The notes under the pieces are model-generated. The model made no database searches, was not told the origin of the DNA, and was given only the letters and a program-made list of their open reading frames with translations. From Cystobacter fuscus (GTDB lineage Bacteria > Myxococcota > Myxococcia > Myxococcales > Myxococcaceae), in assembly GCF_002305875.1 (NCBI RefSeq), contig NZ_CP022098.1:12028001-12092000 (forward strand): DNA of 64,000 nt. Direction: 5' to 3'. Positions 20,848 to 30,300 of the stretch are shown here, in pieces. A program made the position numbers and the translations under genes. The stretch's first letter is position 1; every line of letters begins with the position of its first letter.

Positions 20848-20964
<117 letters not shown>

Positions 20965-21132: not shown

Positions 21133-24105
<2,973 letters not shown>

Positions 24106-24320: not shown

Positions 24321-24348
24321 TCCTGACTCCAACTTCGTCAGTAAACTG

Positions 24349-24421
24349 TGGAGCTGGACGGGATCGAACCGACGACATCCAGCTTGCAAAGCTGGCGCTC
24401 TCCCAACTGAGCTACAGCCCC
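24349..24421 (-). tRNA. tRNA-Ala (TGC)
   Basis: 73 nt from GGGGCTGTAGCTCAG to the discriminator A. The anticodon stem-loop CAGCTTTGCAAAGCTGG has anticodon TGC; the T-arm GGTTCGATCCC is intact. CCA is not encoded (next bases are CAG), so it must be added after transcription. Confidence 0.96.
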
Positions 24422-24486
24422 TGAATGTGTCACTGTCCCTCCACCTGCCGGCTGTCGTCGCGTCCCCAATCTCCCCGGTGGGAAAT

Positions 24487-24563
24487 TGGTGGGCCTAGGT
24501 GGACTTGAACCACCGACCTCGCGCTTATCAGGCGCGCGCTCTAGCCAGCTGAGCTATAGGCCC
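24487..24563 (-). tRNA. tRNA-Ile (GAT)
   Basis: 77 nt including an encoded CCA. It starts GGGCCTATAGCTCAG, has anticodon GAT in CGCCTGATAAGCGCG and T-arm GGTTCAAGTCC. It is the usual first tRNA in 16S-23S spacers, preceding tRNA-Ala. Confidence 0.96.
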
Positions 24564-24732: not shown

Positions 24733-26278
<1,546 letters not shown>

Positions 26279-26426
26279 ATTTTTGAAGGGTTGAACCGGC
26301 TTGGCCAGGGCCCGGCTAAGGGGACACCTGACTTCGCTGTTCATCGGTTTCTCGCCAATCGACTCCCGCCGACTCGCTGAAGAACCCGTCTTAGAATTGA
26401 CTGCGGTTTCCGCAATCTGTCTTCTT

Positions 26427-26454
26427 GGGTTTGCTATCTGGTTTTCAAAGACCG
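26427..26454 (-). promoter_or_regulatory. rRNA leader: boxA and pre-16S stem 5' arm
   Basis: The minus strand reads CGGTCTTTGAAAAC then CAGATAGCAAACCC. The first part is a boxA antitermination core; the overlapping part is the 5' arm that pairs with 24617-24640 around 16S. Confidence 0.6.
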
Positions 26455-26527
26455 AGCCGCTTGTACCGGCTGTCCTGCTGTGCTACTGTCCTGCTCGACC
26501 TCACCGCTTCGACTCAGCGGGGCGGCC

Positions 26528-26556
26528 CTTTTATTCTGAACCGTTTCGGCTGTCAA
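26528..26556 (-). promoter_or_regulatory. Promoter nearest to 16S (best match of the array)
   Basis: The minus strand has TTGACA (26551-26556), a 17-nt spacer and TAAAAG (26528-26533), followed by the GC-rich discriminator GGCCGCC. It lies about 250 nt upstream of 16S. The -35 and spacing are consensus for the main sigma factor. Confidence 0.65.
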
Positions 26557-26626
26557 GCGGCCGTTGCCGCTTCGCTTTTCCGGTTCACCGCGAAGGAGAG
26601 CTGCTTTTCTCTTTCGTGGGGCGCGG

Positions 26627-27201
26627 AACCTACTGCCGTTCCGCCCGTCGTGTCAACCCGCTTCGTCGACTCGTTTCTTCCCACCCACCGCGTCGGGTCG
26701 CCTGCGCGACTTCTTCGGCTTCGGGGGAGGCGGCTTCTACCACCACCGCGTTTCGAGTCAACCTCGCTGCGTCGACTTTTTATTTCGTCTCTCTCTGCTG
26801 CGCTCGTCCAGAGGTCCCCACCGCCAGTGCGGTTTCGCCTTCCCGTCCGAGGGGGCGCGGCTTCTATCGCCTCGCCCTGGATGAAGTCAACTGCCCTCAT
26901 CCACTTCTTCATCCCCGCTCACCGCTGTTGCCACCGGTTCGTGGGGGCGCGGCTTCTACCACCACCGCGTCTCGAGTCAACACCGCTTCGTCGACTCTTT
27001 CTTCCCACTTCGCCGCCTCGATCGCCTGAGCGGTCTCACCGGTTCGTGGGGGCGCGGCTTCTACCACCGCCGCGTCTCGAGTCAACATCACTTCGTCGAC
27101 TCCCTATTTCGTCTTTCTCGCCCAGGTGTCCCACCGCCAGCGCGGCTTCGCCTTCCTGTCCGAGGGGGCGCGGCTTCTACCACCGCCGCGTCTTGAGTCA
27201 A
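26627..27201 (-). repeat. Tandem array of six further rRNA promoter-like repeats
   Basis: Each unit on the minus strand has a -35 TTGACT/A, a 16-18 nt spacer, a -10-like TAGAAG or TAGGTT and usually a GC-rich discriminator CCGCGCCCC. The -35 boxes are at 26651-26656, 26756-26761, 26885-26890, 26975-26980, 27080-27085 and 27196-27201; matching -10 boxes are at 26627, 26734, 26861, 26953, 27058 and 27174 (left ends). Spacers are 18, 16, 18, 16, 16 and 16 nt. GTCGACGAAG precedes the -35 in several units, with short A/G-rich tracts further upstream. Units recur every 90-130 bp. The GC-rich discriminators fit stringent control. Open frames across this region are shadows of the repeat. Confidence 0.6.
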
Positions 27202-27385: not shown

Positions 27386-30300
27386 TCAAGCCTCCACTCG
27401 CTTGAGCACCACGTATCCCGCCGCAGGGATGTTCACCTTCGCGTTCCCGCCCCCCAGGCTGCCCCCGCCATTACCGAAGTTCCCCCCGCCGTACGCCGCG
27501 GCGTCGCTGTTCAGCACTTCCTTCCAGTTCCCCGGAGGCAGCGGCAGCGCGTAGCCCTCGAGGTTCTGGCGGTTCATGCTCCCCACCACCAGGTACTCCT
27601 CCCCGCCCGACTTGCGAGTGAACGCCATCACCGAGTCGTCGTTGTGCGTGTACACCCGCTTCACCTCCGCATCCGCTCGGAAGGCCGGACTCGACTGCCT
27701 CAACGCGATCGCGTCCCGATAGAACTGGAAGCTCTGCTTCTTCGTGATGTCCAACATCGCGTCCGTCCGCTGATTCGCCGGCAGCGCCGCCAGGCGCTCG
27801 AAGACCTTCCGGTCCTCCGCCGACAACCCCTGGTACGCCGCGTCCTTCGCTCGCGTCTCCGGCGGCAGCGTGAACAGCCGCTCGTAGTCCTTCTTGCGCG
27901 CGTCGTTGAACGTCACCTTCTCCCAGTTCCAGTCCTTCCCCAACGACTCCCAATCCCAGTCACTGTCCCACGTGGACGGATTGCCCCAGCGGAAGTCGTT
28001 CTGCGCTCCGAACTCGTCCCCCTGGAAGAACATCGGGATGCCGGGCCCCGCCATCCCGATTCCCGCCGCGAACCTCGTCGCGCCTCGCGACCACTGGTCC
28101 GGGAACTCCGTGGGCGTGGCCCCCTCGGCCGTGTTCATCGTCCGCTCCGCGTTCCCCACCTCGTCATGGTTCGAGATGATGGACAGCGCGATCTTCCACC
28201 CGTCGAGCCCCCGCGGGTTCGTCATCATCGACATGAACGCGTCCATGTCCGTCTTCATCCCCCTCGCCGCCGCCTGGATGATTCCCGGTTTGTCGTTGTC
28301 TCGCACCAGCCGGTGCTGGAACTCCGTGTACCACTGCGCGTCGAAGCCCCCTCCCGTGCCGTCCGCCCGCGCCGGCTGCGTGATGCTCGGGTCGTAGTCG
28401 AACTGCTCCGCCACCGTCCACGCGTCCGGGTTGTAGAAGTGCACCTGCCGGTTGATCTCCCGCAGCAGTTCCCACCCGTCCTCGCCCCCCGTCCCCTTGA
28501 TGGGTTCGGTGAAGTCGAAGCGCAGCCCGTCGAAGTGCAGCTCCTCCATCTGCGCCACCGCGTGGTCCACGAAGAACTGCTTCACCTTCGGGTTGGAATA
28601 CGCCGGCACCGCCCCCCACGGCGTCTCCCGCTGCTCGTACCCGCCCGAGTCCTGCTCCCAGTTGAAGTACGGGTTGTCCTCGCCCCCCACGTTCCACAGG
28701 CCGTTGTAGTCGCCGAACACGTGGTTGTAGACCACGTCAGAGATGACGTTCAGCCCCTTCTTGTGCGCCTCGTCGATGAAGCGCTTCATCGCCTCCGGCC
28801 CGCTCACCCACCTGCCGTTCTCGTCCTCGAAGCCCAACGCGCTCTCCGTCGCCAGGCTGTTCACCCCGAGATAGCCCCAGTTGCGCGCCCCCTCCACCTC
28901 GTTCACTGGCAGGAGCTCGAGCGTGTTCACCCCCAGCTCCTTGAAGTAGTCCAGCTTCGCCGTCAGGTCCTCCAGCGTCGAGCGGTTCGCGTTGCCCGCC
29001 TTCCCCAGGAAGCTGCCCGCGTGCAGCTGGTACACCACCCACTTCGCCTGGTCCTTCTCCCGCGGCACGCTGTCGTGCTTCCACTCGAAGCTCGTCGGGT
29101 CCGTGATGACCGAGCCCCGGAACGTCACGCCACTGCCCTCGGTGATGCGGTCGCTCCAGGGATCGTTGATGGGCGCGCCCACGCGCTCCGCGTCGCTCAG
29201 CCGCCCATCCCCATTGCCGTCATGGCGCAGCTTCAACCGCCCCTGCGCGTCCTTCTCGTAGACCTGGAACTCGTAGCGCAGGCCCACCAGCTTCGCCGGG
29301 TCGTTCACCAGCGTCGTCCACGCGCCCCCCTGGTTCGTCATGCGGATGCGCCCGTCCGCCTCGATGTTCTTCGACCAGAAGTCGTTGGCCCCCCCAGCCC
29401 GCAGCTTGTCCACCAGCGTGGTGTCGAAGTCGCCCAGCCGCGCCAGGAGCTCGTCCTTCTTCAACGTCCTGCCATTCGCGTCCTTCAACACCAGGTACGC
29501 GCGCTCCGCGTCCCCATGATCGTCGATGTCGAAGCGCATCAGCTCCCGCGCTCCCGACGCGTAGCGGTTCACCTCCTGCCCCGTCCTCGCATCCAGGTAC
29601 ATCCGGTCCAGCCCCCGCTGCTCCCCCATCATCTCCCGCGCGTAGGGGTCCGGCCGCTCGCTCGTGGCGCCCGCCGAGTCCACCACCTCGTAGACGTAGG
29701 ACTTGCCCAGCAGCTCCTTCCACCGGCCCGGAACCTGCGTCGACCAGTTGCCCTCCTCGTCCCGCGTCATCGGGAAGCGCTCCACCCGCCCCTGCCGGTC
29801 CGTCACCTTCACCTGCACGCTCCTCGCGTTGCCCGCGTAGAACGTGAACGCCGCGTCCTCCCCCGAACGCCGCGCCCCCATCTTGTGGTACGTCGTCGGC
29901 GCATAGCTGGCCGTGGGCTTCGTCACGTCCAGCTTCAGGTTGTCCTCCCCCATCACCGCCCACTGGCCCTTGCCCGAGGGGCCATCCGCGATCACCCCCC
30001 ACTCCCAGTCGTGGGGCAGGCCATCGTCGCTCAGCTCCACCGTCACGCCCCACTTGCCCTCCCCCAGCGGCTTCATCGCGAGGGGGCGCTCGTTCCACTG
30101 CGCGCTGTACTTCCCGCTCGCGTCCCAGCTCCCCTTCACCTGCAGGTTCGTGAGCTTGCTGTGCGGACCCGCGTCGTAGACCAGCGTCACCGTGCGCTTC
30201 ACCGGCACGCTCCGCGGCGCCTTGTTCACCGCCACGGCCGCCGCCGCCCCCACCCCGCTCCCGCCCTTCCTCGACAGCGCCTCGAACGAAGACGTGTCCC

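Follow-up and report, generated by a model that had tools for sequence, protein, structure and literature searches.

How many promoters can drive a single ribosomal RNA operon? The question is raised by a window of 64,000 nt, the whole stretch of DNA analysed here, from the genome of Cystobacter fuscus, a slow-growing, fruiting soil bacterium, in which an initial annotation had described seven tandem promoter-like units upstream of 16S. All seven were found. The operon (operon A) is encoded on the minus strand and comprises the 16S rRNA gene (24742–26277), tRNA-Ile (GAT) and tRNA-Ala (TGC) (24348–24563), the 23S rRNA gene (21133–24099) and the 5S rRNA gene (20848–20964). The seven sigma-A-type units lie on the same strand, 283–928 nt upstream of 16S, and share one design: TTGAC[T/A], a spacer of 16–18 nt, a TAGAAG-like -10 box and a C-rich discriminator, repeated at a pitch of 90–129 nt.

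The units are numbered here from the most distal to the 16S-proximal one, the higher coordinate of each being the first base of its -35. Units 1 (27165–27201), 2 (27049–27085) and 3 (26944–26980) have the form TTGACT-N16-TAGAAG-CCGCGCCCC with an extended -10 (TGG in unit 1). Unit 4 (26852–26890) is TTGACT-N18-TAGAAG-CCGCGCCCC without the TG, and unit 5 (26725–26761) is TTGACT-N16-TAGAAG-CCGCCTCCC with an extended -10. Unit 6 (26618–26656) is TTGACA-N18-TAGGTT-CCGCGCCCC. Unit 7 (26519–26556), TTGACA-N17-TAAAAG-GGCCGCCCC, is the positional counterpart of P4rrnD of Myxococcus xanthus (PMC4182748). Start-to-start distances from unit 1 to unit 7 are 116, 105, 90, 129, 105 and 100 nt. The -10 box is thus TAGAAG in five units, TAGGTT in one and TAAAAG in one, and its final T is missing in all but unit 6. 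The discriminators had been described as identical, which holds for five of the seven (units 1–4 and 6) and fails for units 5 and 7. The sequence upstream of the -35 had likewise been called repeated; units 2, 3 and 6 contain an exact copy of GTCGACGAAG and unit 5 a copy with one mismatch, and units 1, 4 and 7 lack it. In units 2, 3 and 6 we also observed, around 13–17 nt 5' of the -35, a TTGACG or GTCGAC box that resembles a second or former -35; boxes of the same type occur in two other upstream regions, L021 (at -630 from 16S) and L023 (at -858).

Downstream of all seven units lies a common leader. It contains a boxA-like sequence, CGGTCTTTGAAA (26443–26454, minus strand), assigned by pattern match only, and its region 26285–26506 (minus strand) is predicted to pair with the 16S–tRNA-Ile spacer as a processing stem of the RNase III type. 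The energy of this duplex is -148 kcal/mol, compared with a mean of -115 and a best value of -131 kcal/mol in 100 shuffles. No terminator-like sites were found between the units on the rrn strand, so that transcripts of every unit would enter the same leader. The upstream neighbour is an alpha-amylase-family gene of 1060 aa on the rrn strand, with its end at 27386. The features that mark tandem sigma-A rRNA promoters, namely two or more -35/-10 pairs on one strand with 16–18 nt between the boxes, directly before 16S, an array free of internal terminators, and a common leader with a boxA-like match and a stem, are all present.

A weight-matrix scan recovered seven units on the rrn strand of the 963-nt region, no match on its opposite strand, and no match scoring 10 or more in the 56 kb of the remaining window; first-order Markov shuffles gave 0.000–0.005 matches per shuffle. 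Since the matrix was trained partly on the units of the array itself, these figures measure specificity rather than blind discovery, and the weight falls on an exact-pattern count and on comparative data. The exact pattern TTGACN-N15-20-TAGAAGCCGC has 14 matches in the 12.35-Mb genome, all of them upstream of the four rrn operons, and its reversed-pattern control has none in the same 12.35 Mb. A generic sigma-70 consensus scan found no unit of the array, because that consensus demands T at the last position of the -10. We also considered whether the core is used more widely in C. fuscus, beyond rrn, and discarded this: a shorter pattern gave 26 matches against 21 in the control, and those beyond the rrn promoters and 23S are only at about chance level.

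Tandem repeats are prone to mis-assembly, and the array might be suspected of being an assembly artefact, or a set of chance repeats in GC-rich DNA. The probability of either is negligible. The shuffle, opposite-strand and rest-of-window controls are all empty, the assembly of C. fuscus DSM 52655 combines PacBio and Illumina reads in one contig (PMC5658505), and the comparative data contradict this explanation. An assembly error within the array itself appears unlikely because the assemblies of two other species also show seven units at the syntenic operon. The original description of promoter-like units that drive the rRNA operon as a tandem array is supported, and the units are confined to the rrn strand.

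To what extent are these units built as promoters? We examined 144 distinct rrn cores, in which counts are not phylogenetically independent. Spacers of 15 and 19 nt were allowed and none occurred; the lengths found were 16 nt (49 cores), 17 nt (45) and 18 nt (50). An extended -10 (TGn) is present in 49 of the 49 units with a 16-nt spacer and in none of the 95 with a 17- or 18-nt spacer. TAGAAG is the -10 box in 94 of the 144, and the base at -7 is G in 122 (85%), A in 15 and T in 7. To our knowledge, the -7G bias and the strict link between the 16-nt spacer and TGn are apparently new. The discriminator averages 91% G+C over nine nucleotides, in a GC-rich genome background. At positions outside the matrix, A is enriched 24–19 and 10–6 nt before the -35; this enrichment is conserved and fades further upstream into unconserved linker. 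UP elements are recognized by A/T tracts at around -59 to -38 to which the alpha C-terminal domain binds, and the stretch here is purine-rich, with A enriched at the positions given, rather than composed of such tracts. The pattern fits the footprint of a polymerase together with a weak element of the UP type.

One of the seven units can be connected with experiment. In M. xanthus, P4rrnD is used by RNAP-sigma-A, its open complexes resist heparin in vitro only when CdnL is present, and CdnL binds P4rrnD in vivo, as determined by ChIP (PMC4182748). In Myxococcus genomes, including G078, the published P4rrnD primers map to the unit next to 16S, one primer covering the -35 and the spacer, and the 16S-proximal units of Cystobacter and of a further genus (g3) cluster together. 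The 16S-proximal unit of C. fuscus is orthologous to P4rrnD, and hence one of the seven units has functional support through orthology.

What regulates these promoters? In Rhodobacter, the absence of T at -7 has been associated with a requirement for CarD (PMC8407463), and six of the seven units here have a -10 without the final T, a mark of CdnL/CarD dependence. The C. fuscus genome encodes members of this family of CdnL size (165 aa) and CarD size (326 aa), and we infer that the array depends on CdnL. A GC-rich discriminator, a mark of stringent control by ppGpp/DksA, is also present, and DksA-family proteins are encoded in the genome; ppGpp control of the array is plausible by extrapolation from E. 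coli. CdnL is the better documented regulator of these promoters in the Myxococcaceae.

The initial annotation had proposed a comparison of repeat number among rrn operons and relatives. The four rrn operons of C. fuscus (L001–L004) have seven (A), seven (B), four (C) and five (D) units, and arrays are present in relatives. The genome paper speaks of 12 rRNA operons (PMC5658505); as four 16S upstream regions were found, 12 rRNA genes were probably meant. By flanking sequence, operon A is syntenic with operons of seven and seven units in two other genomes of the genus Cystobacter, operon B with a seven-unit operon, operon C with operons of four and four units in the genus and five in another genus, and operon D with operons of six and seven. 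The number of units is conserved between species and specific to the operon.

Myxococcaceae operons have 0–8 units and those of other Myxococcota 0–3, the counts being lower bounds for some related genomes in which 16S is masked or unassembled. Where the upstream stretch was long enough to judge, members of the family have 0–7 units, mostly 3–7 in the genera closest to Cystobacter. Members of the same order have 2–3 and other families of the phylum 0–2, and the reverse-strand control in these same-order and other-family stretches gave no match. The longest array seen (L216, G073:C19) has eight predicted units, two of them weak, before one rrn leader. A scan for a 20-base core in 84,980 species genomes returned 82 stretches, nearly all from Myxococcus, Corallococcus, Pyxidicoccus, Archangium, Hyalangium, Citreicoccus or Myxococcaceae bins. 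Lone matches in one alphaproteobacterial, one clostridial, one deltaproteobacterial and one unclassified metagenome bin, with one unit each and no 16S start nearby, were taken as chance. Two side observations concern other genomes. The BNCN01 records titled Comamonas sp. KCTC 72670 (L149, L151, L183 and L193) contain rrn promoter arrays of the Myxococcaceae, and the title appears to be mistaken. In genus g3, paired arrays of rrn type lie 13–16 kb apart (G006:C1 at 2676394 and 2692687; G007:C1 at 581862 and 594545), which suggests neighbouring rrn operons.

The units had been thought to have arisen by duplication, and this is borne out by the likeness of the distal units both to one another and to the corresponding units of sister operons. 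In comparisons across genera, each of the two units closest to 16S groups with units of the same position, and the distal units for the most part group with one another, as within-array duplication would predict. The duplications are old: a count of seven is common to three Cystobacter species at the syntenic operon. Compared with operon A of a diverged species (G034), that of C. fuscus has 91% identity in the cores, 81% in the spacers and 57% in the linkers; core and linker identities are 0.90 and 0.58 in operon B, 0.86 and 0.59 in C, and 0.92 and 0.66 in D. Units 1–4 of operon A (ranks 7–4 from 16S) have cores 95% identical each, and distal units are conserved no worse than proximal ones. 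The 16S-proximal core (26519–26556) is the least conserved or among the least (57–86% against G034), and yet it is the sole unit with experimental support by orthology. Conservation of the cores could in part reflect homogenisation between copies and not selection on each.

These patterns bear on a reading in which the operon is driven from only the one to three units closest to 16S, and the distal ones are decaying duplicates that do little and are kept by slippage and gene conversion. We regard this as unlikely. It would account for the retention of identity across genera by the two units nearest 16S, for the mutual likeness of the distal units and for their variable number (five, six and seven at the D operon), and promoter use is highly uneven in the published arrays of mycobacteria, one Mycobacterium fortuitum rrn promoter giving <1% of pre-rRNA (PMC2443159). 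However, decaying copies are hard to reconcile with distal cores conserved at least as well as proximal ones (95%, against 57% for linkers) or with the maintenance of array length at syntenic operons across species.

Alternatively, the distal repeats may be binding sites for polymerase or a factor, enhancer-like or forming a holding array, rather than sources of transcripts. Complete cores with A-rich segments upstream would indeed bind polymerase, and a pitch with a median of 113 nt, never below 86, leaves room for one polymerase each. We nevertheless consider this highly improbable: helical phasing of the pitch is absent (R 0.06 at 10.5), neither terminators nor any other obstacle to escape are present, and the distance between -35 and -10 stays within the functional range.

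Tandem promoters are familiar from E. coli, in which rrn P1 and P2 form unstable open complexes and have UP elements; there are two units. The same holds for B. subtilis rrn P1 and P2 (PMC7824091), again with two units, and in neither species is there an array derived from repeats. The closest known counterpart is M. xanthus rrnD, from the same family, with a consensus -35, an 18-nt spacer, sigma-A dependence and stabilisation by CdnL (PMC4182748); the name P4rrnD implies at least four promoters there, compared with seven at two C. fuscus operons, and the same matrix finds 3–5 units in the operons of M. xanthus AM003. Mycobacterial rrnA has a hypervariable multiple promoter region, with tandem promoters whose number differs from species to species and reaches five in M. 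chelonae (PMC10218544), and CarD/CdnL stabilises open complexes at mycobacterial rRNA promoters, as CdnL would in C. fuscus. However, the mycobacterial promoters differ in sequence and are fewer, murA rather than an alpha-amylase-family gene lies upstream, and no relation by descent is suggested. According to a passage in PMC4983044, which cites Dennis 1985, five tandem promoters of unequal strength precede one rRNA operon in Halobacterium cutirubrum, whose archaeal transcription machinery makes this an analogy only. CarD-activated promoters of Rhodobacter and other Alphaproteobacteria also lack the final T of the -10, for which CarD/CdnL is proposed to compensate (PMC8407463), but this is a different phylum with the -7 base spread about evenly, whereas myxococcal rrn cores have G in 85%. 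In the literature searched, mostly papers available without subscription, no rRNA promoter array of seven or eight units was described, and we found no publication on the M. xanthus rrn array itself or any longer one. The C. fuscus array is a longer version of the tandem rRNA promoters known from other microbes, which number two to five, five being the highest count among the papers found. The earlier view that about seven is high is sustained, as it exceeds the published cases found (five, five and at least four).

Taken together, the region is very probably a row of seven RNAP-sigma-A promoters, all aimed at one rRNA operon. This reading is founded on sequence, strand, conservation, synteny and the orthology of the proximal unit; that the other six are active, and that their activities add up, we infer. 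Each unit, with its near-consensus -35, mostly -7G -10, C-rich discriminator and purine/A-rich upstream stretch, would capture polymerase readily and form short-lived open complexes, which CdnL would stabilise and starvation signals (ppGpp/DksA) would destabilise. Transcripts of every unit would run into one leader with its boxA-like sequence and processing stem, and the extra promoters would raise the flux of initiation and leave mature rRNA unchanged. Some units may be nearly silent, as the M. fortuitum rrn promoter mentioned above suggests, and transcription from upstream could occlude downstream units. The array probably grew by tandem duplication, mostly at its distal end, with units near 16S homogenised between operons and array length kept per operon.

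A rather improbable extension is that promoter number acts as an inherited, operon-specific dial (7, 7, 5 and 4), and that CdnL-dependent, short-lived complexes make total rRNA synthesis drop unusually steeply with increasing ppGpp, which would help to fix the nutrient threshold at which fruiting bodies develop. The strict link between the 16-nt spacer and the extended -10 offers a ready test of how far sigma-A tolerates short spacers. The near-identical units, conserved in number per operon, form a natural series in which the additivity of tandem promoters, their occlusion and their control by CdnL or ppGpp could be measured directly.
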